DNA from: a virus
DNA length: 20,809 nucleotides
Reading direction: 5' to 3' (one strand)
IMG/VR virus record: IMGVR_UViG_3300008113_001973
Coordinates: 1-20,809 of that record
Made by a program: the position numbers and the translations under genes
Notes under the pieces: generated by a model
Told to the model about the DNA's origin: nothing
Databases searched by the model: none
What the model saw: only the letters and a program-made list of their open reading frames with translations
Shown here: one piece after another, positions 4,013 through 20,086 of the stretch
Numbering within the stretch: position 1 is the stretch's first letter
Layout of the letters: every line of letters begins with the position of its first letter

Positions 4013-4597
4013 TTATAAATTGAAAACAATTGAAATACGTGGATCGGTTGATTGATTCGGTAACACCTCATGATACAGCCATGCAGGCCACATCAACAAC
4101 AACCCTGGATATGGCTTATAGTCATACTGTTTGAGTGCGTACCAATTATCTGGATCCTTGACCATGAACATATAATCGAAAAAGTCTCGAAACGGCTGAT
4201 TCGGTGTGAACCTAATGTCTGAAGAACCTGGTGGTGTTTGTAGGTAGAAAATACCTGAGATAGTGCATTGTGAATGCACGTGTTTTGGATGTGCGCTACC
4301 TTCTAGAAAGTAGTTTAGGAAGAAATATGGATTGAACTGTGGCAAAAAGATTTCAAGTTTTTTAAATTTAGCTTCAACGGCTTTTTCTAACTCCGCCTCA
4401 GTAATATTTATATCAGTTTCCATCATTAATACCTTGATAATTGCTAAAACATCACCAATTTCTGTGACAAGTGCCTGTCTATTCGTGACACCTTGCCACT
4501 CACCATGCATACCAAAACGGTTAATTTTGGATACGGCTTGAATCACTTCTGCACATTCTTCCTGTAGCACAGCCATTACTGTTTGTGTATTTCTCAT
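4013..4597 (-). CDS. MazG-like nucleotide pyrophosphohydrolase fused to 2OG-Fe(II) oxygenase domain (194 aa)
   Basis: Residues 5-85 look like an all-alpha MazG-type NTP pyrophosphatase half. E13-E14-xx-E17 (QEECAEV) and E46-xx-D49 (TEIGD) fit the EExxE/ExxD metal-binding motif. Residues 88-194 look like the core of a TIGR02466-type 2OG-Fe(II) oxygenase: HPKHVHSQCTISGIFYL (H106, H108), PGLLLMWPAWLYHEVLPN (H176) and PRISIVFNL (R187 as the likely 2OG contact). The N-terminal helical part usual for the oxygenase is missing and replaced by MazG. The ATG at 4597 gives an ATGA overlap with the previous gene and is preferred over a TTG 12 bases upstream. Each half alone is common in phages; the fusion is unusual. 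Confidence 0.8.
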   Translation of the reverse strand: MRNTQTVMAVLQEECAEVIQAVSKINRFGMHGEWQGVTNRQALVTEIGDVLAIIKVLMMETDINITEAELEKAVEAKFKKLEIFLPQFNPYFFLNYFLEGSAHPKHVHSQCTISGIFYLQTPPGSSDIRFTPNQPFRDFFDYMFMVKDPDNWYALKQYDYKPYPGLLLMWPAWLYHEVLPNQSTDPRISIVFNL

Positions 4598-4812
4598 TCT
4601 GTAATCCAATCTGGTTTAGGTATTTCAACTGCCCAATGTAAAACACACCAGTCATCAATGCATAGTTCTCTGCTAATCAAATCGTGTCGATTGACTTGCA
4701 CCATTTTACTGTACCAATATTTGTAATATGATTCGATGATTTGGTCTTCAGACCAAATTTCATCCACGTGCTGACCCCACCGGCCAGGAAAAGAAATGGT
4801 ATAATACTTCAT
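4594..4812 (-). CDS. Conserved phage protein with WSEDQIIESYY motif (72 aa)
   Basis: This small acidic, aromatic-rich protein contains WSEDQIIESYYKYWYSKM and CIDDWCVLHWA. I recognise these strings from uncharacterised proteins of T4-like cyanophages and relatives. There is no signal peptide or membrane segment. Both ends are coupled to neighbours by four-base ATGA overlaps (4809-4812 upstream, 4594-4597 downstream), which supports the start and the reality of the gene. Function unknown. Confidence 0.8.
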   Translation of the reverse strand: MKYYTISFPGRWGQHVDEIWSEDQIIESYYKYWYSKMVQVNRHDLISRELCIDDWCVLHWAVEIPKPDWITE

Positions 4813-6868: not shown

Positions 6869-6897
6869 ATTTTACAGCAGGAGACACAGCTTGTCAA
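6869..6897 (-). promoter_or_regulatory. Sigma70-like promoter for the 6794-2155 unit
   Basis: On the minus strand TTGACA (6897-6892), a 17-base spacer and TAAAAT (6874-6869) form a near-consensus host sigma70 promoter. Transcription would begin near 6862 and give a leader of about 68 bases. The -35 box overlaps the first codons of the divergent homing endonuclease gene. Confidence 0.75.
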
Positions 6898-7418
6898 GTA
6901 TATATACAAACATTTTTTACATATATGCCTATTTGAGGGGAGATGGCACACCTTATTACATAGGTAAAGGTTGCGGTTTAAGAGCTTGGAGACATTTCAA
7001 AAAAGAAATAAAGCCTCCCAAAAACAAAACACTGATAACAATAATTGAAACGAATTTAACCGAAATTGGTGCATTTTCCCTCGAAAGAAGATACATCAGA
7101 TGGTATGGCAGAAAAGACTTAGGTACAGGTATTTTGCGTAATAGAACCGATGGTGGTGAGGGTGCATCGGGTAGAAAAATTGTAATAACACAAGAATGGA
7201 AAAATAATATGTCCAAAGCAAAAGTTGGAAAAATACCAAAGTGTACCTTTACTCGGCGCTCATATGAAAATGGAGGAAACCCAAAAGCTAAAAAATGCCA
7301 GTCGGCCGATGGTCAAATTTTCAACTCTGCAAAAGAGGCCGCCGAAAAATTTAATTTAAAAATAAAAACAATACAAGCAAGATGCAGAAATAACGTTGGA
7401 GGTTGGTGTTATTTTTAA
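6891..7418 (+). CDS. GIY-YIG homing endonuclease, free-standing, with NUMOD1-like tail (175 aa)
   Basis: The N-terminus FYIYAYLRGDGTPYYIGKG carries the GIY-YIG motif (here Y-I-Y ... Y-Y-I-G), followed by LRAWRHF and the conserved Glu-containing SLERRYIRWYG and RTDGGEG. The C-terminus (CQSADGQIFNSAKEAAEKFNLKIKTIQARC...GGWCYF) resembles a NUMOD1 DNA-binding module. Such Seg-like enzymes cut cognate alleles lacking the gene and spread by repair. The start is TTG at 6891: CAGGAG lies seven bases upstream, and the only nearby ATG is out of frame. It is the only plus-strand gene here and is inserted between minus-strand units, with AAA/AAT-rich codons. No interrupted host gene or intron is visible. 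Confidence 0.9.
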   Translation: MSSIYTNIFYIYAYLRGDGTPYYIGKGCGLRAWRHFKKEIKPPKNKTLITIIETNLTEIGAFSLERRYIRWYGRKDLGTGILRNRTDGGEGASGRKIVITQEWKNNMSKAKVGKIPKCTFTRRSYENGGNPKAKKCQSADGQIFNSAKEAAEKFNLKIKTIQARCRNNVGGWCYF

Positions 7419-8504: not shown

Positions 8505-8536
8505 AGAAAAAGACGCACCAGGATCGTCCTGGAGCG
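8505..8536 (-). terminator. Intrinsic terminator of the 12335-8543 unit
   Basis: On the minus strand CGC-T-CCAGGA, loop CGA, TCCTGG-T-GCG forms a stem of nine pairs with one T-T mismatch. It is followed by TCTTTTTCTG. It sits just after the stop of the gene at 8543-8743. Confidence 0.8.
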
Positions 8537-8542
8537 CCTGGA

Positions 8543-8743
8543 TCACTTTATTGTGTTCAGAGTCTCTACCAGTCGGTTCCATTCGTCTGGGTTGAGGAAA
8601 AACTCTACCTGTGACTGGATGGCATCAGGAAACTTGGCACCCTGGTACTTCACTGACAATTTTATATGTTTCAACTCACGAATATTTTCTATATCTAAAA
8701 AGTATTCATATTGCTGGTACTGATCGGAAATTACGTGTCTCAT
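8543..8743 (-). CDS. Hypothetical protein, last gene of the SPFH/AAA+ unit (66 aa)
   Basis: The protein begins MRHVISDQYQQYEYFLDIEN, then ELKHIKLSVKYQGAKF, and ends FFLNPDEWNRLVETLNTIK. The alternation suggests a small beta-sheet followed by a helix. I do not recognise a family. The ATG overlaps the TGA of the AAA+ ATPase gene by four bases, and a terminator follows the stop. It is therefore co-translated with the ATPase and may be its partner; that is inference. Confidence 0.7.
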   Translation of the reverse strand: MRHVISDQYQQYEYFLDIENIRELKHIKLSVKYQGAKFPDAIQSQVEFFLNPDEWNRLVETLNTIK

Positions 8744-9702
8744 ACAAAACCCATCTTGATTTCTTTAATTTTATTTGGCTTCACGTTAGTGTTCTGATTA
8801 AAGAACACATCAGCGATGGACCACTTAGTGCGTTCACCATCAATACTCACACCAGCTTTCTCGGCAAGTTTTTCAGCTTGTTCCTGATTCAATTCAGAAA
8901 AGTGTAGAATGTCATAGCAACGACCAGGACGAACCAGTGCAGAATCAATGTCTTTGATTGATGGTAAGTTGGTGGAGAACACCATCTTCTTATTGCGAGT
9001 GGTCACCAAGCCATCACCAACGTTCAAAAACTTATGCATCATGGTGTTACCTTCTTGGCGAGACTTCAAGAACATATCAGCATCTTCCATCACCATCACA
9101 GACTTATCACCTTCGATGAAGTTGGCGAATACATAATCTTTTTCCAGAATGCTTGCATCGTATGTAACAATTGCGGAAGAATTTGTATGTTGAAGTAGAC
9201 CACGAATGAATGTAGTTTTCCCCGTGCCTGGTGGTCCAATGAGCAACAAAATAGATGCATTCGATTTCATGAAGTTGTCGTAATATTCACCGAGGTTTTG
9301 ACCTTCGAGGAACGGATACATTTCATTCAATGGCATACGATCAGGCTGTAGAGGTACTTCCATTGAAGAACCATCAGATGAATAAATCCATTCAATTTGG
9401 TTGGTCACAAAAGTGAAATCGTTTTGAAATTGTTTGTGCAAGTTATCAATGAAAACATCATCACCAAACAATTCAATAGACACGTGTGTGTTGTGTATAC
9501 GGTACGCCAAATAGGATAGATTTTCATCATCATGAAAATATCCGGTCGTGCGAGAGTCCTGAACACACCGATAATCGGATAAATGTGTAATGTATGCGTC
9601 CCATTCCTTGTGTGTTGCATACACACCGAAATCTTTACGCACACTTTCAAGTTGCTTATCATTTCGTTTTTTAAGCACAGCTTGTATCATGTACTCTGCC
9701 AT
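8740..9702 (-). CDS. AAA+ ATPase (Bcs1/FtsH-type module), 320 aa
   Basis: Residues 1-130 form an uncharacterised N-terminal domain (KKRNDKQLESVRKDFGVYAT). The AAA core follows: Walker A GPPGTGKT at 156-163, Walker B VMVMEDAD near 202-209, sensor-1-like FSTNLP at 242-247 and RPGR at 258-261 as the expected arginine finger region. This is the classic AAA family used for remodelling or unfolding. There is no membrane segment or protease domain. A second ATG at 9690 gives a four-base overlap with the upstream 48-residue gene and could be the true start. It is co-transcribed with the SPFH lipoprotein. Confidence 0.9.
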   Translation of the reverse strand: MAEYMIQAVLKKRNDKQLESVRKDFGVYATHKEWDAYITHLSDYRCVQDSRTTGYFHDDENLSYLAYRIHNTHVSIELFGDDVFIDNLHKQFQNDFTFVTNQIEWIYSSDGSSMEVPLQPDRMPLNEMYPFLEGQNLGEYYDNFMKSNASILLLIGPPGTGKTTFIRGLLQHTNSSAIVTYDASILEKDYVFANFIEGDKSVMVMEDADMFLKSRQEGNTMMHKFLNVGDGLVTTRNKKMVFSTNLPSIKDIDSALVRPGRCYDILHFSELNQEQAEKLAEKAGVSIDGERTKWSIADVFFNQNTNVKPNKIKEIKMGFV

Positions 9703-9833
9703 ATCTGATGCAGATACGAAAATATCATTTTAACCACCCATGTGGCCCAATCTTGTCGGTGGATTTTATTAATATCGATGTGGTTCTGTTTGCAAAAATT
9801 CCACGCATCGAGGTAAAACGAGAAAAGTTCCAT
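9687..9833 (-). CDS. Small Trp-rich protein (48 aa)
   Basis: The protein reads MELFSFYLDAWNFCKQNHID then INKIHRQDWATWVVKMIFSYLHQIWQST, a helix-rich, aromatic, basic peptide with four Trp. The ATG at 9833 lies one base after the TGA (9837-9835) of the upstream gene. A longer frame reaching to 9977 overlaps that gene fully and is rejected. It overlaps the start of the AAA+ gene. Function unknown; membrane-surface binding is possible but not shown. Confidence 0.65.
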   Translation of the reverse strand: MELFSFYLDAWNFCKQNHIDINKIHRQDWATWVVKMIFSYLHQIWQST

Positions 9834-9834
9834 A

Positions 9835-10020
9835 TCAAATATCCTTTGCTTTGTATTCATAATTCCAATATCGAGTACCTTCGTAAGTATACTCCACATT
9901 GCCCCGCCTGGCAACAGTTTCCAGCCAACGACAATCATTGTCTGCCACTCTGACTGGAAACCATGCGAACCAATCATGCCACAGAAGTTTGTAATTTTTC
10001 GATGGGCAATTAAACTTCAT
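9835..10020 (-). CDS. Conserved small phage protein, HDWFAWFPVR motif (61 aa)
   Basis: The sequence includes LLWHDWFAWFPVRVADNDCRW and LETVARRGNVEYTYEGTRYW. HDWFAW-PVRV...DCRWLETV...R is a pattern I recognise from many short, uncharacterised phage proteins. A compact beta-fold is likely. It overlaps the 45-residue upstream gene by 11 bases and is followed at once by the 48-residue gene. Function unknown. Confidence 0.75.
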   Translation of the reverse strand: MKFNCPSKNYKLLWHDWFAWFPVRVADNDCRWLETVARRGNVEYTYEGTRYWNYEYKAKDI

Positions 10021-10147
10021 GGTCGTATGTCATATACAGTTTTAACAAGTAAGAAAAAAGAATGGGTTGGTGGTCAGGATTTGGAAGTGTATCACCATAA
10101 ATCCTAATCAACCCATTCATAATTTTTTCTAGTTGTTCCTCTGTCAT
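10010..10147 (-). CDS. Small conserved phage protein (45 aa)
   Basis: The protein begins MTEEQLEKIMNGLIRIYGDT and continues LPNPDHQPILFSYLLKLYMTYDHEV. The LPNP-x-HQPI-x-FxYxxKLY string is familiar from uncharacterised phage proteins. The ATG at 10147 overlaps the stop of the SPFH gene (ATGA). It overlaps the next start by 11 bases. It is too short for most gene finders but fits the overlap pattern on both sides. Confidence 0.75.
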   Translation of the reverse strand: MTEEQLEKIMNGLIRIYGDTLPNPDHQPILFSYLLKLYMTYDHEV

Positions 10148-10941
10148 TTTGGCATCATGAGTGCATTGAAGTTGGATGGCACAACGATTGTCTGCACTTT
10201 ACCCGCTTTGATACCTTCAGAGATGTTCAACATGGCTTGAGCCTGCATGAATGCAATGGAACTGCCAGAGTTATTTGCAAGTGCGGCCATACGGCGAGAT
10301 TCAGCTTCGGCAGTTTTAACTTCAACTTCTTTCTGCTTGAGTTCGTTCTTTGAGCGAACCAATGCATTAGCTGATTCGACAACAGTATCGGATGGCAACA
10401 CATTACGAATCATAACTTGACTGATAACAATTGCACCGTCCAACTTTTCTTCGGCCATGTTGCGTACAATCTCATCTTGAATGAACTTTTCCATTTCGCT
10501 ACGCTTGTCCGCCATATCCAATGCTTCGTATTTACGTGCGGCCTTGTAGATGGCATTACGAGCAGTTTGCACAATGTAGTTATACATCACATAGGTGTCA
10601 CCTTTAAACTCAGCGTGAAAACTCTTATTCTTAGTTGAGTACAATTCGGCGACTTGTTGTGGGTTGATGTTATAAACAACCACAGCATCAAAGTCTTTCA
10701 TTGTTGAGTTGTCACTGGCCACTGGTGTCATATTCTCCAATGTCACATTAACATCTTTGATGGGGAATGTCAGCACAGTGCCAATCATAGTTTGATTAAA
10801 TGAGCCTGGTAGCAATTCACCACTTTGTACTTGTTTATCAAAGCCAACTCGAACACCAACTTCACCCGTTTCAATTCGAGTACAGGCAGAGGTGAGAGCA
10901 ACAGCGGCGGCAATAACAGAAATTTTCAACAAACGAGACAT
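10144..10941 (-). CDS. SPFH/prohibitin-domain lipoprotein (265 aa)
   Basis: The N-terminus MSRLLKISVIAAAVALTSAC is a signal peptide ending in a lipobox-like site with Cys20; the -3 residue is Thr rather than Leu, so lipidation is likely but not certain. Residues 21-200 carry the SPFH/prohibitin pattern: RIETGEVGVRVGFDKQ, TFPIKDVNVTLENMTP, VVVYNINPQQVAEL, a long amphipathic region and ISQVMIRNVLPSD. A charged coiled-coil (KNELKQKEVEVKTAEAESRR) and ending VVPSNFNALMMPK follow. SPFH proteins form large membrane-bound rings or cages. AAAGGA lies five bases before the ATG. It is flanked by a two-helix membrane protein gene and lies upstream of an AAA+ ATPase. Confidence 0.88.
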   Translation of the reverse strand: MSRLLKISVIAAAVALTSACTRIETGEVGVRVGFDKQVQSGELLPGSFNQTMIGTVLTFPIKDVNVTLENMTPVASDNSTMKDFDAVVVYNINPQQVAELYSTKNKSFHAEFKGDTYVMYNYIVQTARNAIYKAARKYEALDMADKRSEMEKFIQDEIVRNMAEEKLDGAIVISQVMIRNVLPSDTVVESANALVRSKNELKQKEVEVKTAEAESRRMAALANNSGSSIAFMQAQAMLNISEGIKAGKVQTIVVPSNFNALMMPK

Positions 10942-10950
10942 AACAATCCT

Positions 10951-11127
10951 TTAAAACATAATGACAATAAAAACAAGAAACAGACAGGTGAGTATAGCAC
11001 AAATTGCACTATACGCAAACAATTTTATCAAAACCCAACGTTCTTTACCAGAAAGTTGAAAGTATGTTTTGATTACAATAAAAAATAACAAAAAGACAAT
11101 AAGAAAAACCAAAATCATTTGAATCAT
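10951..11127 (-). CDS. Two-helix small membrane protein (58 aa)
   Basis: The frame reads MIQMILVFLIVFLLFFIVIK, then TYFQLSGKERWVLIKLFAYS and AICAILTCLFLVFIVIMF. Two hydrophobic helices flank a short polar turn (QLSGKER). The ATG at 11127 overlaps the TGA of the nucleotidyltransferase-fold gene by four bases, and the stop lies nine bases before the SPFH start. It probably sits in the inner membrane and may partner the SPFH lipoprotein; that is inferred from order alone. Confidence 0.75.
   Translation of the reverse strand: MIQMILVFLIVFLLFFIVIKTYFQLSGKERWVLIKLFAYSAICAILTCLFLVFIVIMF
10991..11018 (-). promoter_or_regulatory. Possible internal promoter upstream of the SPFH gene
   Basis: Minus-strand TTGCGT (11018-11013), a 16-base spacer and TATACT (10996-10991) form a plausible promoter about 50 bases before the SPFH ATG. 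GTATAG-N11-CTATAC forms an inverted repeat covering it. The site is inside the coding sequence of the 58-residue membrane protein, so it may be coincidental. Confidence 0.35.
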
Positions 11128-11678
11128 TTAAATTTCCATCCTCTATCAGTATATTTGTCAACACGTTTCTGTGAAAGGTGGAACGCATTTGGGTGTTCAT
11201 TCTTAATCAAAGTTTTACTTTTGATTGCATCATATTGCCTTTTGGAAATATGAAGTAAATTCTGTGATATTTTATACCACGGCATACAATGCACAAAATC
11301 AAATGTAGTACGTGCATCAGCAGTGTGCATTGTAATCACTTGAATACCATTTTTAAATGTGGTGGCATTTGCAGTCACTAATTTACCACTAATAACTGCA
11401 TCTAGATATTTTTCGTCCACATCTTTAATCAAATTATGGTCCATAACAAGAACATATTGTTTGAAAAACATTATGTGGTTTTCATCATTCAAATACAAAT
11501 CATAATCATTCGGCGATTCACCATTCAAAAAAGACGGAATTGCACCTCCGGACAAGATTGCATTCTGCTTTAAAAAATCCTCCAATACACCAGGAAAATC
11601 ATTCAAACGCTTTGCTACAGCTTGTGCGGCAAGTTCTTTAATACTTCGAATATTGTTTTTTTCTTGTTCACTAAACAT
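11124..11678 (-). CDS. Nucleotidyltransferase-fold protein (184 aa)
   Basis: The start at 11678 has AGGA nine bases upstream; an upstream extension lies inside the previous gene. LSGGAIPSFLNGESPNDYDLYL (42-63) fits the GG ... DxD signature of the polymerase-beta / poly(A)-polymerase-head nucleotidyltransferase fold, with D58 and D60 as metal ligands. A third acidic residue may be in TTFDFVH. Phages often carry such proteins; their substrates (RNA end, protein or nucleotide) are generally unknown. It lies between an unknown gene, overlapped by eight bases, and the two-helix membrane protein gene. Confidence 0.72.
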   Translation of the reverse strand: MFSEQEKNNIRSIKELAAQAVAKRLNDFPGVLEDFLKQNAILSGGAIPSFLNGESPNDYDLYLNDENHIMFFKQYVLVMDHNLIKDVDEKYLDAVISGKLVTANATTFKNGIQVITMHTADARTTFDFVHCMPWYKISQNLLHISKRQYDAIKSKTLIKNEHPNAFHLSQKRVDKYTDRGWKFK

Positions 11679-12009
11679 TATAATGTGTCCTGATAAATTT
11701 AATCTGGTCATCTGGTGCAAGATAACAACGAGCATTTATCCTTGTATTCCCTGTTTGACGGTCTTCCATATAGGTAAACTCAACCAAATTGTTCGATAGC
11801 ATATACTTAGCCAATTCAATTGACATTTCATATTTTACATGATCTCTGAAAGATTTTTCAGAGCCAAATGAATGAATCTTCTGTTCGGGAAATTCCATTG
11901 TACACCGCACCAATTTACCACCAATAGCGGTAACTTGGTGTGTGAATTCTAATTGTGAATCGTATGCATAGGGGTCTAAAACCCATGGCGGATTTACATT
12001 AATCGCCAT
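11671..12009 (-). CDS. Hypothetical protein (112 aa)
   Basis: The protein begins MAINVNPPWVLDPYAYDSQL and is beta-rich, with an embedded helix (SEKSFRDHVKYEMSIELAKYM) and the ending RCYLAPDDQIKFIRTHYNV. I do not recognise it. Start choice: the ATG at 12009 overlaps the previous TGA by one base, and a GTG one codon earlier (12012) would overlap it by four. The end overlaps the nucleotidyltransferase-fold start by eight bases, so coupling is tight. Confidence 0.7.
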   Translation of the reverse strand: MAINVNPPWVLDPYAYDSQLEFTHQVTAIGGKLVRCTMEFPEQKIHSFGSEKSFRDHVKYEMSIELAKYMLSNNLVEFTYMEDRQTGNTRINARCYLAPDDQIKFIRTHYNV

Positions 12010-12335
12010 CACACCACTTCAGTAGTATCTTCCGATTTTTCAATCTCACGTTGTGTTGGTGCGACACTCTTAGCTTTACCAATGTAACGACCTTCGGGAG
12101 AGAATTCATCAAAGTTAACGAGTTGGTAACCGGTCACTTTCCGACCATCTTTATACACACGTACAATTCCACCATCTTTGCGGATGTTGTAAATATTTGT
12201 GGAGAGTCGGTAGAGTACGCCTTCTTGGTCTGTGCCTTTGAAACAGGCTTCAATCTCGGAAGGCGAGACAGGTTTACCTGAGAGCAAAACACAAGCAATT
12301 TTTTCGTGACGATTGATTTTAGTATTCGAACGCAT
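12009..12335 (-). CDS. Winged-helix-like DNA-binding protein (108 aa)
   Basis: Residues 8-75 read KINRHEKIACVLLSGKPVSPSEIEACF... RLSTNIYNIRKDGGIVRVYKDGRKVTGYQLVN. The helix, turn, helix (SPSEIEACF; YRLSTNIYNIRK) and beta-wing (GGIVRVYKDGRKVTGYQL) suggest a wHTH domain. The remaining 35 residues are charged and disordered. It may regulate phage or host promoters. It is first in the ten-gene unit that ends at 8543, and its own promoter contains an inverted repeat, so autoregulation is possible. AAAGGA lies six bases upstream of the ATG. Confidence 0.68.
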   Translation of the reverse strand: MRSNTKINRHEKIACVLLSGKPVSPSEIEACFKGTDQEGVLYRLSTNIYNIRKDGGIVRVYKDGRKVTGYQLVNFDEFSPEGRYIGKAKSVAPTQREIEKSEDTTEVV

Positions 12336-12372: not shown

Positions 12373-12401
12373 ATTATAACAGAATGGCCGTCTGGTGGCA
12401 A
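12373..12401 (-). promoter_or_regulatory. Promoter TTGCCA-N17-TATAAT for the SPFH/AAA+ unit
   Basis: Minus-strand TTGCCA (12401-12396), 17-base spacer, TATAAT (12378-12373). Predicted transcription starts near 12366, about 30 bases before the ATG at 12335. Confidence 0.8.
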
Positions 12402-12427: not shown

Positions 12428-13591
12428 TTAGAATGGTATTTCTTCATCAGGTGAGTTGGGCATCACAGGTGCGGTGTTTGCTTCCGCAACTTTAACGTCC
12501 ACTTTGGAATACAGATCAAGGAAAGAATCCTTAGTCTCTTGGTCAAAACGATTCACACAGAGTTGAATTGCTTTTTGACGGTCTTTGAAGATAGAATAGG
12601 TCTTTGCAATGTGTACCAAACGGCGGGTGGAAACAATCTCATCAACACCACCTTCGGCAAATGTTTTACGAATCACATCAGCCCACTTTACAAGGTTCTC
12701 AGCAAATTCATCATCATTCAACAATGGTTTGAGAATCTTGAGTTCAACTTTGGACTCAGGATATTCCTGTTCAACAGTAATGTTGAAACGTTCAAGAAAC
12801 GCATCATCAAGAATTTGTGAGAGGTAACGACCTTCTTCGGAGCCACGACCCTTGGTGTTTGCGGTTGCAATCACGTTGAAGCCACGCTTCGGATAAATGT
12901 ATTCACCAGACTTTTTGTTGAAGTAAGGTTTACCTTCAAGAATACCTTGCAGGCACATGAGTTTGTTAGAACCACGGTCAACTTCGTCAATCAATAGAAT
13001 TGCGCCACGTTTCATTGCGGTCATCACAGGACCATCACGATACACCACGTTACCATCAACCAGTGTCGGACCACCAATCAGGTCAGATTCATCGGTTTCA
13101 ACAGAGATGTTAACACGGATACATTCACGCTTGAGTGTGGCGCAAACTTGTTCAACCATCAGTGTCTTACCATTACCAGACATACCGGTAATAAACACTG
13201 GAAAGAATTCTTGTGAGAGTACAATAGAGGTGAGGTCTTTGTAGAAACCAAAAGGAACATAGCCTTGATACTTTTCTGGAATGGAAGTATCTGCATGGTC
13301 TTCAAGTTTCTTTTGACGGAGAACATGAATCGTGGCAGGTTGTGCGAGATCAACTGTGTCGAGTTCTTCCGTCACTACAGGAGCAGTGAGTGGTGCTTTG
13401 AGTGCATCAGGTGCATCAGGAAGGCGGTATTGGCCACGACCAGCACGGAAGTCTTGTCGAGTGACAAACCAAAAAGGATAGGGTACGGCACGTTCATCAA
13501 CTACACGTTGAATTTGGTCACGGGTCAGAATGGCATTCACTCCGAACATTTCAGATGCCGCTTGCACAAACGCTTTCGCATTACGATTCAT
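12428..13591 (-). CDS. CobS/MoxR-type AAA+ ATPase (387 aa)
   Basis: The ATG at 13591 is chosen because GGAG lies six bases upstream; another ATG twelve bases earlier overlaps that site. Residues 1-65 form a small domain (AILTRDQIQRVV...GRGQYRLPDAP) resembling a winged helix. The AAA_5-type core has Walker A GMSGNGKT (about 136-143), the pre-sensor insert ETDESDLIGGP, Walker B AILLIDEVDR (about 197-206), and VIATANTKGRG with the downstream FLERF arginine. Phage CobS-like ATPases are common in T4-like genomes with unknown targets. The last residues are SPDEEIPF, like an SSB C-terminal tip. It is a single-gene unit. Confidence 0.9.
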   Translation of the reverse strand: MNRNAKAFVQAASEMFGVNAILTRDQIQRVVDERAVPYPFWFVTRQDFRAGRGQYRLPDAPDALKAPLTAPVVTEELDTVDLAQPATIHVLRQKKLEDHADTSIPEKYQGYVPFGFYKDLTSIVLSQEFFPVFITGMSGNGKTLMVEQVCATLKRECIRVNISVETDESDLIGGPTLVDGNVVYRDGPVMTAMKRGAILLIDEVDRGSNKLMCLQGILEGKPYFNKKSGEYIYPKRGFNVIATANTKGRGSEEGRYLSQILDDAFLERFNITVEQEYPESKVELKILKPLLNDDEFAENLVKWADVIRKTFAEGGVDEIVSTRRLVHIAKTYSIFKDRQKAIQLCVNRFDQETKDSFLDLYSKVDVKVAEANTAPVMPNSPDEEIPF

Positions 13592-13617
13592 AAAATTCTC
13601 CATAATAAAGTGTTTCT

Positions 13618-16225: not shown

Positions 16226-16653
16226 TTCTTTCTCTTTTCATAAACATCACGGATGGCTCTGGCATCATGTAGTGCATTATGTGGTACGACCGATTCATAT
16301 TCAATACTAAAGTCTAATTCGAATTTGATATTATTCTTCAGTGCAATTCGTTGACCTGGACCAGTAATGAGAGATTCACAGAAATATCGAATATCATCTG
16401 GCCAATCTGCAACGATAGTACAATCACCTACCCAGTTTAGATATTGTGCAAGTGTCTGTTGGAACTTATTATGTGTACATGGATTCAAAAACAAGTGGGG
16501 TACAACATTTTCTGCAACCCAAGGTTCCAATTGGTCTTTGATTTCCAATTCAACATAGAATTCAGGAATCGTATTATTCTCTGGCACCAAAGCCATGGAG
16601 ATTAGTTTACCACCAAAACCATTGAATTCGGTGTCTAGAAATAATTTAAGCAT
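16222..16653 (-). CDS. DEDDh 3'-5' exonuclease (143 aa)
   Basis: FLDTEFNG carries D7 and E9 of motif I. DWPDDIRYF near 83-91 provides the motif II Asp (D86 likely), and HNALHDARAIRD (H125, D130) forms the DEDDh motif III. The small size is like phage DnaQ/RNase T-like exonucleases that act on single-stranded DNA or RNA 3' ends. All four acidic residues and the His are present, so it should be active. It is a distinct gene from the DexA-like enzyme at 19190. Neighbours overlap by one and four bases. Confidence 0.85.
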   Translation of the reverse strand: MLKLFLDTEFNGFGGKLISMALVPENNTIPEFYVELEIKDQLEPWVAENVVPHLFLNPCTHNKFQQTLAQYLNWVGDCTIVADWPDDIRYFCESLITGPGQRIALKNNIKFELDFSIEYESVVPHNALHDARAIRDVYEKRKK

Positions 16654-16913
16654 TACATTCCTTTATCAAAGGTGTCTCGAATCACAGATATTGCGGCTTC
16701 AGTAGCCCATCCAATATCTTCATTCTCAAAATTGGAGACACCAATAAGTGCAATCCGTTGAACACATTTTTGCACAACTAAATCAGCAAACTTTTCCAAT
16801 TCGTAATCATATGAACAGGACCAATCCACCACAGCATCCACTGGTGCATGTTCTTCGCCATTCCATAATACAAACCCAGCCTCGTCGGCCAACTCTTTAA
16901 TTAGTTTCTTCAT
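16653..16913 (-). CDS. Paralogue of the ELIV family, diverged C-terminus (86 aa)
   Basis: MKKLIKELADEAGFVLWNGE parallels MNERIKQLADDAGFLMWDGE of the gene at 17430. The 25-residue block from GEEHAPVD to YELEKFA is identical in both. The second half (KCVQRIALIGVSNFENEDIGWATEAAISVIRDTFDKGM) is different and lacks the usual QHFGVEE ending. Such short helical phage proteins have no known function. It overlaps both neighbours (ATGA upstream, one base downstream). Confidence 0.75.
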   Translation of the reverse strand: MKKLIKELADEAGFVLWNGEEHAPVDAVVDWSCSYDYELEKFADLVVQKCVQRIALIGVSNFENEDIGWATEAAISVIRDTFDKGM

Positions 16914-17050
16914 TCTTCAACCTTGAATCGATTTTGAAGTTTACGCTTGAAATAACCTTTGAGTATCATATCATCAAATACAAAGAAGGCAACCCCCCAC
17001 ATGATAGCCAGCATAGAGAGAAACAGCAAATCAGAAATAATATAAATCAT
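16910..17050 (-). CDS. Small single-helix membrane protein (46 aa)
   Basis: MIYIISDLLFLSMLAIMWGV and AFFVFDD form one long N-terminal hydrophobic helix, followed by the positive segment MILKGYFKRKLQNRFKVEE, so an N-out, C-in inner-membrane topology is likely. ATGA overlaps join it to the genes on both sides. The end FKVEE echoes the HFGVEE ending of adjacent paralogues, perhaps a trace of recombination. Function unknown. Confidence 0.68.
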   Translation of the reverse strand: MIYIISDLLFLSMLAIMWGVAFFVFDDMILKGYFKRKLQNRFKVEE

Positions 17051-17169
17051 TCTGCTACTCCGAAATGTTGCAACAAAAAATCACCTTCGATATCAAAAAC
17101 TTTTAGTTCTTTAGTTACTTGCTTTGCACATTCTTTCACAATCAACTCACAAAAAAACTCTATATCCAT
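17047..17169 (-). CDS. Short ELIV-family paralogue, possibly frameshifted (40 aa)
   Basis: The frame reads MDIEFFCELIVKECAKQVTK then ELKVFDIEGDFLLQHFGVAE. It keeps the F-x-ELIV-x-EC and QHFGV-x-E signatures of the family but lacks the N-terminal half. Upstream, the usual ATGA start (17215) enters a different frame. Removing a single base near that start would join it in frame to this coding stretch as MNGEAITGSNETGDVMD... It is either a truncated gene using an internal ATG or a frameshifted copy. No good Shine-Dalgarno precedes the internal ATG. Confidence 0.6.
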   Translation of the reverse strand: MDIEFFCELIVKECAKQVTKELKVFDIEGDFLLQHFGVAE

Positions 17170-17211
17170 AACATCACCAGTTTCATTACTTCCTGTTATA
17201 GCTTCGCCGGT

Positions 17212-17433
17212 TCATTCTTCAACTCCGAAATGTTGTTCGATCCGCATGGCAATGATTAGACCAGGACCGCCAAGTTTAGAACCATCATATTCTTGGGCAA
17301 TGGACATACATTCCTTCACAATCAACTCGGCGAACTTTTTACGATTGAAACTTTCAGCAGTAGAAGTACCGTTTAGTCCGCACTTCACTGTTTCAGTTGC
17401 CTGTCTTTCAAGTTGTTTAACTCGTTCGTTCAT
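17212..17433 (-). CDS. ELIV-family paralogue (73 aa)
   Basis: MNERVKQLERQATETVKCGL begins the protein, followed by FNRKKFAELIVKECMSIAQE and the end AMRIEQHFGVEE. MNER...KFAELIV-x-EC...QHFGVEE is the family signature, seen in many uncharacterised phage proteins that I recognise. The ATG overlaps the TGA of the gene at 17430 by four bases. Function unknown; helical. Confidence 0.78.
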   Translation of the reverse strand: MNERVKQLERQATETVKCGLNGTSTAESFNRKKFAELIVKECMSIAQEYDGSKLGGPGLIIAMRIEQHFGVEE

Positions 17434-17696
17434 TCTTCAACTCCGAAATGTTGTTTAATCTCCGTCATACATTGTGTGCCACCATTCAACCAAGTATCTA
17501 CTGATTCGGGAACAGGGTCACTGATAACTTGCTCACAACATCCTAAACATTCCCTCACAATCAACTCGGCGAACTTTTCCAATTCATAATCATATGAACA
17601 GGACCAATCCACCACGGCGTCAACCGGTGCATGTTCTTCACCATCCCACATTAGAAAACCGGCATCATCGGCCAATTGTTTAATTCGTTCGTTCAT
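17430..17696 (-). CDS. ELIV-family paralogue, full form (88 aa)
   Basis: The protein has the full layout: MNERIKQLADDAGFLMWDGE, the central block HAPVDAVVDWSCSYDYELEK, FAELIVRECLGCCEQ and the ending TEIKQHFGVEE. The central block is almost the same as in 16653 at DNA level. The ATG overlaps the preceding TGA by four bases. Function unknown; probably helical and soluble. Confidence 0.8.
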   Translation of the reverse strand: MNERIKQLADDAGFLMWDGEEHAPVDAVVDWSCSYDYELEKFAELIVRECLGCCEQVISDPVPESVDTWLNGGTQCMTEIKQHFGVEE

Positions 17697-17920
17697 ACAA
17701 ATCCATTACCAAATACTTTTGTTCCGAGTGCCACATTCGAATTATCTTCACGTTCGGCAATAATATCCATGTGGTGTTTGGATGGATAATGACGGAGGCA
17801 ATGATGTGCTTGAATACGGAGTGATTTTGGAATCCGTGGAGTTACCTTTGGATCCAATAGGTCCAATAGAAACTGCTCGGTTTTAATCACGGCATTTTTA
17901 CGTTCTTGTGGTACTGTCAT
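17693..17920 (-). CDS. BPSL0761-family-like protein (75 aa)
   Basis: MTVPQERKNAVIKTEQFLLD begins the protein, followed by PRIPKSLRIQAHHCLRHYPS. MTxPxERxxAV...FLxDL...P-x-P-xxxRxxAxxxLRHYP is the pattern of the BPSL0761 family, known from Burkholderiales genomes, and similar proteins occur in phages. The N-terminal 55 residues match; the tail (NVALGTKVFGNGFV) does not. Function unknown. It overlaps both neighbours by four bases. Confidence 0.72.
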   Translation of the reverse strand: MTVPQERKNAVIKTEQFLLDLLDPKVTPRIPKSLRIQAHHCLRHYPSKHHMDIIAEREDNSNVALGTKVFGNGFV

Positions 17921-18345
17921 AGCTTTTCAACAATAATTTTATTCCCCATCTCCTCACCAAAGGAGACATTCTCATAATATATTTTCACAAGCCCTTTCCG
18001 TGCGAGTGATTCAATAGCGAGGAATGCACAGAATTGGTCAATTCTCTGTGAGAATGTATCAATATCTTTAAATGCAGTAAGCCCTTCACCTGCGGCTAAC
18101 ATCTCAGCCATAAGTGCAATCTCAGAGAATTGTTCAGAGTCTTCATCACCTGAGATTTTTAATAGATTCTCTACGTCATAATCGGATAAACTTTTCAAAA
18201 AATCACCGACCGACATATAACCTGATTCAGATAAATCAACGGCAAGTGTCCGTGTCACGGGCATTAACCCTTTTGACTTGATAATATTGTCATACACAAG
18301 GGTAAACTGACCTTCTTCATTATCACCGAATTCAAATTCATCCAT
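17917..18345 (-). CDS. Hypothetical acidic protein (142 aa)
   Basis: The protein is acidic and largely helical. It contains DEFEFGDNEEGQFTLVYDNI, a segment that could dimerise (LSESGYMSVGDFLKSLSDYD) and ALMAEMLAAGEGLTAF, and ends KIYYENVSFGEEMGNKIIVE. I do not recognise the family. A small potential basic pair is absent, so DNA binding is unlikely. It lies 10 bases after the upstream gene. Confidence 0.7.
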   Translation of the reverse strand: MDEFEFGDNEEGQFTLVYDNIIKSKGLMPVTRTLAVDLSESGYMSVGDFLKSLSDYDVENLLKISGDEDSEQFSEIALMAEMLAAGEGLTAFKDIDTFSQRIDQFCAFLAIESLARKGLVKIYYENVSFGEEMGNKIIVEKL

Positions 18346-18355
18346 AATATACCCC

Positions 18356-18586
18356 TTAAATAATCTTACCGAGAATGCCGTAGATCAATTGATCTAATTC
18401 AGCCTGATAGTCCTTACCGGTTCTACGCTTTACATATAGTGTCTGGAGAACCTGTCGCATTTCCTCACCATCAACGAATTGAGTATTATAATCATACCCT
18501 CTCCGTTTCAGTTCCTTGATAAGGTCATCATCAGAGAGTTCATCAAGTACATCGTCAACCTCAACATATGTGTTTACGTATGGCAT
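18356..18586 (-). CDS. Conserved phage protein, LIKELKRRG motif (76 aa)
   Basis: The start at 18586 overlaps the upstream TAA by one base (TAATG); an extension to 18610 would lie in that gene. The protein has YVEVDDVLDELSDDDLIKEL and KRRGYDYNTQFVDGEEMRQVL. The EV-xx-DxL-xxLxxxDLIxELxRRG pattern is common in phage and bacterial small proteins. Helical and acidic. Function unknown. Confidence 0.78.
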   Translation of the reverse strand: MPYVNTYVEVDDVLDELSDDDLIKELKRRGYDYNTQFVDGEEMRQVLQTLYVKRRTGKDYQAELDQLIYGILGKII

Positions 18587-18978
18587 TATGCAGTTTCCCT
18601 TCCTGCACAAAATTCAGCAAAATAAACCCATGGTCCAGTGAATATGGCTTTACCCCTATAATCCTTCACCGTGATACGGTCAGTATAAATGTGGTATTCA
18701 TATTCTTGCCCACAATCTTTGGAATTCACAGGGTAGAGGTAGAAACCACCAGCACCAATCTTAAAATGTGCAACCATTTGAGCGGCGAGGCAACCCATGC
18801 CATTAGCCAGTTTCCGAGTATCTCCGAGTGGAATACCATTGGTAATAGCTTCAAATGAGTTTAAAAATTCAGCCAGTTCTGCACCATGACCAGATGGATA
18901 ACCATCAAACTGGCGATACATATTGATAATTGGTTTGTTCAGGTCATCATAAACAAAAGTAAGAGAGCGAGTACCCAT
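18586..18978 (-). CDS. Conserved phage protein, MGTRSLTFVYD family (130 aa)
   Basis: MGTRSLTFVYDDLNKPIINM followed by YRQFDGYPSGHGAELAEFLN matches a phage protein family that I recognise by its invariant opening and YRQFDGYPSGHG. The C-terminal half (GGFYLYPVNSKDCGQEYEYHIY) is probably beta-rich. AAGGA precedes the ATG. It is the first gene after the promoter at 19010-19038, so it starts the long unit to 14125. Function unknown. Confidence 0.83.
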   Translation of the reverse strand: MGTRSLTFVYDDLNKPIINMYRQFDGYPSGHGAELAEFLNSFEAITNGIPLGDTRKLANGMGCLAAQMVAHFKIGAGGFYLYPVNSKDCGQEYEYHIYTDRITVKDYRGKAIFTGPWVYFAEFCAGRETA

Positions 18979-19009
18979 GATAATTCCTTTTCAGTTTTCA
19001 GGTGGTTCT

Positions 19010-19038
19010 ATTGTATCATAACCATTCTAGAATGGCAA
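19010..19038 (-). promoter_or_regulatory. Promoter TTGCCA-N17-TACAAT for the long 18978-14125 unit
   Basis: Minus-strand TTGCCA (19038-19033), 17-base spacer, TACAAT (19015-19010). The 14-base perfect palindrome CCATTCTAGAATGG (19022-19035) overlaps the -35 box and spacer. Confidence 0.8.
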
Positions 19039-19053
19039 GTCAGCAGGAAGTTC

Positions 19054-19215
19054 TCATTTGTTGAATGATTCGATCCATGCAAGTAGGATTTCCTTGGCTT
19101 CTTTGTATGTCACATCAAATTCCCGTTCGAGGTACAGAGCCGCTCCCCACATATTAGTTTCCCCAGAATTCCGGAGTTCAACGAGATAATCAAAATATTC
19201 TTTCATTTCGTTCAT
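19054..19215 (-). CDS. Conserved small phage protein, KEYFDYLVELR motif (53 aa)
   Basis: The protein reads MNEMKEYFDYLVELRNSGET, NMWGAALYLEREFDVTYKEA and KEILLAWIESFNK. The pattern MKEYFDYLxxLRxSGxTNM-x-GAxxYLxxEF...EAxxIL-xW-xxSF is one I know from many short phage proteins. An ATG three codons later (19206) is an alternative start. It overlaps the DexA-like gene by 26 bases. Function unknown. Confidence 0.8.
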   Translation of the reverse strand: MNEMKEYFDYLVELRNSGETNMWGAALYLEREFDVTYKEAKEILLAWIESFNK

Positions 19216-19825
19216 TTTTAGCACCATATAACATCATCATTGCATCAAATACACAGTCATCAATTGGATTATGCTTGGTAATATGTAATGCTGGATCAAA
19301 TTTGTCCATCCATGGTGGTGTTTCCACTTTCACATAACCATCGTGTGTGTCATATAGAAAATCGACAGCAGTTCTCACATCACGCCATCGTGCATATTTG
19401 AATACTGGTTCCAGACCAATTTGTTCTTCAATATCATCTAGCACCAATTGATCCAGATTACCACGTGCAAATACCCATGCCGTTGGATCGTTTTTCTCAT
19501 TAGCCCAGGCTCGCATACGTTCATAACCGTCCTCGAATATCTCATCCGCAGGACAAGGTGTAAATGATTTTGTTTTGGCATTCAAGCATTGTTTAGCCCA
19601 CCATTCCATTGTGGATTTACCCGCAACCCGGTGCAACCTTTTCATCTGGTCTTTAACGTCAAACTTGGCAAAAAATGCACCTTCAAATAGTGCCTTATGA
19701 TTGGGTTTATCCTCAGGCTTGAAATGAATACAGGCCATGGAGAGAATAACCGAATGGGATCGTTTACCCAATGTTTCAACATCAAATATAAAAATTTTAA
19801 TTCTCCGATATAATAAACAGTTCAA
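19190..19825 (-). CDS. dexA: DexA-like 3'-5' exonuclease (Rv2179c-like), 211 aa
   Basis: IFIFDVETLG carries D15 and E17 (motif I) and is followed by SVILSMACIHF. FARGNLDQLVLDDI has D125 (motif II), and HNPIDDCVFDAMMM has H185 and D190 (motif III). These match T4 DexA and Rv2179c-like exoribonucleases of the DEDDh class. The reading frame opens with TTG at 19825, directly after the TGA of the upstream gene. Homologues usually begin MKIFIFDVETLG, where this gene has ATT AAA ATT instead. The N-terminal extension is therefore probably real but odd. It acts on single-stranded DNA or RNA 3' ends. Confidence 0.87.
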   Translation of the reverse strand: MNCLLYRRIKIFIFDVETLGKRSHSVILSMACIHFKPEDKPNHKALFEGAFFAKFDVKDQMKRLHRVAGKSTMEWWAKQCLNAKTKSFTPCPADEIFEDGYERMRAWANEKNDPTAWVFARGNLDQLVLDDIEEQIGLEPVFKYARWRDVRTAVDFLYDTHDGYVKVETPPWMDKFDPALHITKHNPIDDCVFDAMMMLYGAKNERNERIF

Positions 19826-20086
19826 TCATTCTTCAACTCCAAAATGTTGTTTAATCAATTCTCTTGCCTGATTCAACCCGCCAAGATTAGTGATAATACG
19901 CTGGCGCATTTGCAATTGACAATCATCATTAATGACTTGACACATTTCCCGAACAATCAACTCGGCGAATTTTTCTCCCCAGCCAGAGACCAACTCAACA
20001 GCTTTTTCTCTGGCGCCCGGAGTGATTGGATCACCATAGTGTTCTTGAAATGCCATCAACATAAGTTCTTGTATTCGTTCGTTCAT
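19826..20086 (-). CDS. ELIV-family paralogue, distant copy (86 aa)
   Basis: The protein starts MNERIQELMLMAFQEHYGDP and contains GWGEKFAELIVREMCQVIND. It ends ARELIKQHFGVEE, as in the tandem copies at 17212 and 17430. The middle differs greatly, so only the MNER, KFAELIVRE and KQHFGVEE ends are shared. It lies about 2 kb upstream of the other copies, with its own intervening genes, so dispersal is not recent. Function unknown. Confidence 0.78.
   Translation of the reverse strand: MNERIQELMLMAFQEHYGDPITPGAREKAVELVSGWGEKFAELIVREMCQVINDDCQLQMRQRIITNLGGLNQARELIKQHFGVEE

Follow-up and report, generated by a model that had tools for sequence, protein, structure and literature searches.

Which of the genes that surround a phage-borne SPFH gene act together with its product? 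This question is raised by the viral record IMGVR_UViG_3300008113_001973, which was analysed in its entirety (20,809 bases, hereafter the window). Ten successive open reading frames (ORFs), all on the minus strand, run from position 12335 to position 8543 and include genes for an SPFH lipoprotein, a small hairpin membrane protein and an AAA+ ATPase. The initial annotation of this DNA had judged it plausible that the SPFH protein, the AAA+ protein and their small partners form one membrane-scaffolded system of the host envelope, by analogy with HflKC and FtsH, and had made the conservation of gene order its test. A megablast search with the whole window gave no match to known phages. Our data point to a smaller unit, as the SPFH gene and the hairpin gene just upstream of it very probably constitute a conserved two-gene module.

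Conserved pairing of the hairpin and SPFH genes

The two genes of the pair are the following.

10144..10941, minus strand: SPFH/Band 7 lipoprotein of 265 amino acids, with a signal peptide, Cys20 and a predicted prohibitin-like fold (PF01145, PHROG_200); probable core of the module
10951..11127, minus strand: hairpin (two-helix) membrane protein of 58 amino acids, 9 nt upstream of the SPFH gene (two hydrophobic segments, AlphaFold2 model); probable second member of the module

The SPFH gene is present in several hundred other viral contigs. Its product is 85-92% identical to the window copy in the 80 closest viral loci. The remaining window genes mostly recur in just a few of these loci, the hairpin gene being the exception. 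Distant SPFH loci were then added and near-copies removed, giving a non-redundant set of 89 loci in which hairpin ORFs were limited to 100 amino acids or fewer. A hairpin ORF was located directly upstream of SPFH in 76 of these 89 loci, compared with 24 of 562 control ORFs (4.3%) from the same loci; the 77th candidate, in L119, proved to be the frameshifted SPFH itself and is not counted. The protein distances of hairpin and SPFH are also correlated (Mantel r = 0.45, p = 0.0005). T4-like phages, Ackermannviridae, Schitoviridae, Obolenskvirus and Kyanoviridae all include carriers of the pair. Among isolates, it was found in the cyanophages BUCT-ZZ01, S-CREM1 and B23, in Acinetobacter phages (Straboviridae, Schitoviridae, Obolenskvirus and others), and in Kuttervirus CBA120, PhiSH19, Erwinia phage Bue1 and Vibrio 5P1b. 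In BUCT-ZZ01, a Synechococcus phage that grows on S. elongatus PCC 7942, the pair occupies L086 3793-4801. The CBA120 record annotates the hairpin gene as orf127A; in the GenBank records of PhiSH19 (L204) and Bue1 (L206) this gene, just upstream of SPFH, is unannotated. Pairing, gene order, tight spacing, spread over unrelated phages and separability from the AAA+ gene all argue, at the level of sequence, for a module.

By its sequence, the product of 10144-10941 is certainly an SPFH protein, as the initial annotation had stated. It reached 67 bits against Pfam Band_7 (PF01145; cut-off 23.6, E = 2.8e-18) and matched PHROG_200 'lipoprotein' (E = 1.7e-32). Cys20 is invariant in 82 relatives, where it is preceded by a variable hydrophobic signal, and a PROSITE-like lipoprotein pattern was detected in the SPFH proteins of 83 of the 89 loci. 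Based on the signal peptide and the invariant cysteine, the protein is probably an exported lipoprotein exposed to the periplasm. A phmmer search of its sequence against the PDB gave nothing significant, and its relatives there came from structure comparison alone. With a moderate-confidence AlphaFold2 model as query, Foldseek retrieved PHB1/2, stomatin and HflK/C (E down to 2.1e-8), consistent with an SPFH fold; PHB1/2 was the top match, with stomatin and HflK/C scores close behind (no subfamily profile).

The hairpin protein carries two hydrophobic segments, and AlphaFold2 predicts helices at residues 2-24 and 27-57 (pLDDT 86.5), which bears out the earlier call of a two-helix membrane protein. 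No family scored above cut-off in Pfam and PHROG profile searches. Its sequence is variable (mean identity 34%, vs 70% for SPFH), and the near-fixed features are the length of 58 amino acids, the MI start, Lys35, Val55 and the terminal Phe58. Basic residues fall mostly within the loop (positions 20-35), with a stronger bias in Kuttervirus, which suggests a cytoplasmic loop with both ends outside. The alignment was too variable to serve as a scan profile, and viral contigs scanned with the hairpin alone, a short and hydrophobic query, gave no confirmed match. Membership in a known exclusion family was considered and rejected, as neither the window hairpin nor eight isolate hairpins matched a profile of known superinfection immunity or exclusion families, although profiles may miss proteins this short.

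Some loci have a gap of 95-97 nt between hairpin and SPFH. Regulatory DNA was considered for this gap and rejected because it encodes a conserved micro-ORF of 28 amino acids with a single membrane span (like MINDRWLRPLYFALGFVVCFYLFSTGVI; pattern M-x-D-..-LRPLYF-x-LGF..), which lies about 87 nt ahead of the SPFH start. L003 and some 20 further loci carry this micro-ORF, and the window lacks it. In both the hairpin gene and the micro-ORF, changes are fewest at codon position 2 and most numerous at position 3, as coding predicts.

SPFH and hairpin are both coding and under selection. At the four-fold degenerate sites of SPFH, identity to the window gene is only 36-56%, against about 88% for the protein, and synonymous sites are saturated. 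This indicates an old divergence under strong purifying selection and not a recent transfer of identical DNA. The SPFH protein is 81-89% identical between contigs with a T4-type capsid and contigs whose terminases align only locally, at 26-31%, and a quick SPFH tree interleaves the two. The window SPFH groups with that of L003 (92%) and not with that of L055 (86%), although L055 is the closest relative in the surrounding genes.

Possible function of the pair and alternatives

We propose that the SPFH protein, once exported and lipidated, would assemble into a multimeric dome standing on the envelope side of the inner membrane; prohibitin, stomatin and HflK/C, which its predicted fold matches, form rings or domes. 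Since a lipid anchor leaves the membrane itself uncrossed, the membrane-spanning part below this dome would come from the hairpin, its basic loop facing the cytoplasm and its two ends lying outside. Such a dome could wall off a patch of membrane or membrane proteins, stabilising the envelope during infection, and protection against superinfection or premature lysis would be its most likely use. We give a periplasmic, lipid-anchored SPFH dome with a hairpin tether an even chance of being correct. The reading as a whole, in which the module protects or reorganises the host membrane, falls a little short of that mark.

Gene neighbours are the source of the proposed use. The rIIA-rIIB genes lie shortly upstream of hairpin-SPFH in 11 sampled contigs, and in one of them (L039) rIIB directly abuts the hairpin gene. 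Also, rI is near SPFH in RB43 and Aes508, and a superinfection-exclusion annotation adjoins the Kuttervirus pair. Such neighbours suggest envelope protection tied to lysis timing or superinfection, a role that we put forward tentatively. It is speculative, in the same degree, to see here a widespread and previously unrecognised envelope machine, made of a lipid-anchored SPFH dome and a dedicated hairpin subunit (with the 28-residue microprotein in a subset), which unrelated phages of Gram-negative bacteria have exchanged. Such a machine would control the integrity of the membrane, the timing of lysis or superinfection, and in some phages it would extend the rIIA-rIIB operon.

The presence of the hairpin may depend on how SPFH is anchored. 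No hairpin was found upstream of the transmembrane-anchored SPFH of RB43, 44RR, Aes508, a T5-like phage, LAh_9, AsFcp_2 and helene, and among isolates it accompanied lipoprotein-type SPFH in 8 of 9 cases vs 3 of 10 for the transmembrane-anchored type (p = 0.02). This gives a hint, and only a hint, that the hairpin makes up for the membrane helix which lipoprotein-type SPFH lacks.

Several observations weigh against the dome-and-tether proposal. The link between lipoprotein and hairpin is not significant once related phages are collapsed (p = 0.24), and SPFH occurs without the hairpin in Herod, in chromosomal homologues and in one viral clade. The 11 contigs with rII genes represent few lineages only. 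The AlphaFold2 model of SPFH is of moderate confidence only (pLDDT 66, pTM 0.50). In the lipobox, the residue at -3 is Ala or Thr where Leu is usual, and the residue at +2 after the cysteine is Thr, which bears on the inner-membrane placement: by the Lol rule of E. coli, Thr at +2 would route a lipoprotein to the outer and not to the inner membrane.

The main rival explanation is that the module modulates host FtsH, with the phage SPFH replacing HflK/C or competing with them in the periplasm and so altering the degradation of membrane proteins during infection. The structural matches of SPFH do include the HflK/C-FtsH assembly, and interaction with FtsH has been reported for SPFH1 and SPFH3, with a similar inference made for the prohibitin-like SPFH4 (PMC2636767). 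However, about half of the isolate SPFH lineages are anchored differently, and no proteolysis-related neighbour was found at the loci. We therefore consider this explanation unlikely, if worth keeping in view.

It is less probable still that SPFH is a bacterial housekeeping gene acquired by phages for general tolerance of membrane stress, next to a hairpin with no specific role. Stand-alone chromosomal homologues of 54-60% identity do exist in Massilia, Duganella, Pseudoduganella and a Bacteriovoracaceae metagenome-assembled genome, and a hairpin-less SPFH clade that includes six viral contigs clusters with Oxalobacteraceae. Nevertheless, the hairpin accompanies SPFH even where SPFH identity is only about 25-45%, and an accidental association would not be preserved over such distances.

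The AAA+ gene and the remainder of the window

The other features of the unit, with its putative boundaries, are listed from its upstream end.

12373..12401, minus strand: sigma-70-like promoter, TTGCCA-17-TATAAT, 11 of 12 positions plus a TG preceding the second hexamer (consensus match only)
12009..12335, minus strand: winged-helix-like protein according to the initial annotation; backbone gene, with relatives near AAA+ in L084 and L085
11671..12012, minus strand: protein of 113 amino acids, part of the block that L084 and L085 lack; four loci have weak partial relatives
11124..11678, minus strand: nucleotidyltransferase-like protein with a GG...DxDLY motif, in the same missing block (PHROG_4400, E = 1.4e-11)
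9687..10147, minus strand: three small ORFs between SPFH and AAA+ (10010-10147, 9835-10020 and 9687-9833)
8740..9702, minus strand: soluble AAA+ ATPase of 320 amino acids (PF00004), in a separate backbone (MoxR, winged helix, AAA+) and very probably outside the module
8543..8743, minus strand: protein of 66 amino acids, backbone gene; 67% in L083 and 48% in L084, each directly following AAA+
8518..8532, minus strand: intrinsic-terminator-like stem-loop at the unit end, a 6-pair stem then a T-rich tail (consensus match only)

The AAA domain is certain (PF00004, E = 9e-12), so that the product of 8740-9702 was correctly called an AAA+ ATPase. Its partnership with SPFH was not supported. A scan found relatives of this AAA+ in only three contigs. 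In L084 and L085 the genes for MoxR (79% and 65%), the winged helix (82% and 67%), AAA+ (61% and 47%) and the downstream proteins keep the order of the window, and SPFH is absent from both contigs. Between winged helix and AAA+, L084 has two unrelated small ORFs and a homologue of ORF 9687-9833, and L085 has nothing; the gene for the 113-amino-acid protein is absent from both intervals. Conversely, 17 of 20 large SPFH contigs, including contigs of 364 and 367 kb, showed no match to the window AAA+. In two of the remaining three, AAA+ lies about 8-9 kb from SPFH, and in the third the ATPase core alone was aligned (37%). Since contigs may be fragments each single absence is weak, but separability overall is clear. 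The order of SPFH and AAA+ is thus not conserved among relatives and their contexts are unrelated, except in the relative contig L055/L083, which keeps the window order apart from ORF 10010-10147 and where the winged-helix gene would fall past the end of the locus.

That SPFH, AAA+ and the small proteins form one system, as first proposed, has in its favour their common predicted transcription unit in the window and in L055/L083 and the AAA+ proteases that partner SPFH proteins elsewhere. It is nevertheless rejected as very improbable, both on this gene content and on topology, the two proteins being predicted on opposite sides of the membrane. What stands of that proposal is a plausible action in the host envelope by an SPFH lipoprotein and a small membrane partner. 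AAA+ is separable from hairpin-SPFH, which makes the ten-gene unit a mosaic, and AAA+ itself is in all likelihood an accidental neighbour of the module.

A second, MoxR-like AAA+ gene (12428-13603) is found about 1.2-1.6 kb upstream of hairpin-SPFH in the window, L216 and L217, the other AAA+ being far off in L216 and L217. It was rejected as a general partner of SPFH because only 5 of 83 sampled loci carry a relative.

The unit was also said to possess its own promoter and terminator. The ten ORFs and both sites are indeed present. Taken together, promoter-like sites are not more frequent in the window than in shuffled sequence (17 vs 13.6 +/- 3.4), but the site at 12401-12373 is, with that at 8472-8445, one of the two strongest; the boundaries are thus plausible and unproven.

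The other identities proposed within the unit fared unevenly. The winged-helix call for 12009-12335 was left unconfirmed, with no Pfam or PHROG match. The nucleotidyltransferase motif is visible, but matches were to phage families without assigned function and no family confirmed the call; relatives of this gene elsewhere lie apart from SPFH and on the opposite strand. Of the small ORFs, 9687-9833 has a homologue kept in L084 and L085 and 9835-10020 has a relative in L055/L083 only. ORF 10010-10147 (45 amino acids) is the least certain gene of the unit, as no relative was found, the closest relative contig included.

Several observations concern the rest of the window. The stretch from 16653 to 20086 contains several small paralogues whose products finish with HFGVEE or a tail much like it. 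The repeated DNA at their 3' ends, GGAGTTGAAGA, stands just before the next start codon; in related loci this repeat is likewise found ahead of many hairpin genes, as though it acted as a portable ribosome-binding site. The sole long plus-strand ORF (6891-7418) resembles by eye a GIY-YIG homing endonuclease, with only a sub-threshold I-TevI DNA-binding match. Two proteins (1-192 and 1305-2102) are made of a repeated motif (GGDKAIFGYG ... TNLVSN), and the longer has no Pfam match. A single ORF at 4013-4609 encodes a MazG-like domain fused to a 2OG-Fe(II) oxygenase domain, and the MazG part aligns alone in relatives.

Comparison with known systems

The occurrence of SPFH proteins in phage genomes has been on record since 2006 or earlier. 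The accessible literature assigns them no role, and no description of the hairpin-SPFH pair was found in open-access literature, subscription papers being outside the search. With the conserved partner, the lipid anchor and the recurring rII, rI and exclusion neighbours, what was an annotation becomes a two-component system open to test, which offers a minimal model for membrane organisation by SPFH domes and corrects the SPFH/AAA+ account of this locus.

A close parallel is Kuttervirus CBA120, where a small hairpin ORF (orf127A) likewise lies directly upstream of an SPFH lipoprotein gene (orf126); its SPFH sequence is very divergent, and the annotation leaves the two genes unconnected. A 2006 paper reported Band 7 proteins for the phages 44RR, Aeh1 and RB43 (PMC1524935). 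These transmembrane-anchored proteins, also known from a T5-like phage, share PHROG_200 with the window protein in the case of 44RR, but they possess an N-terminal membrane helix, and 44RR, RB43, Aes508 and DaisyDussoix have no upstream hairpin. The chromosomal SPFH lipoproteins of Oxalobacteraceae (54-57% identity) have the same cysteine and signal peptide, whereas they stand alone, with no upstream hairpin gene in those examined.

Bacteria are known to have SPFH-NfeD operons and SPFH types that interact with FtsH (PMC2636767). An HflKC-FtsH-type complex requires a membrane-anchored AAA+ with a protease domain, and the analogy fails on topology: the 8740-9702 product has no predicted membrane segment or signal and no protease domain match in Pfam. 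SPFH-NfeD operons (QmcA-YbbJ, FloT-YuaF) likewise place a membrane partner gene beside SPFH in a conserved operon (PMC2636767), and the QmcA-YbbJ complex is among the structural matches of our SPFH model. The hairpin differs in having two helices only and no NfeD family match, and its 58 amino acids leave no room for an NfeD soluble domain; in the prohibitin-like SPFH4 group no NfeD partner was detected (PMC2636767). With prohibitin, stomatin and HflK-HflC, the phage protein shares the SPFH domain, the predicted fold, a helix after the SPFH domains and a predicted envelope location. It is distinguished from them by a lipid anchor in place of the N-terminal membrane helix, by being phage-borne, and by its 58-residue hairpin partner.

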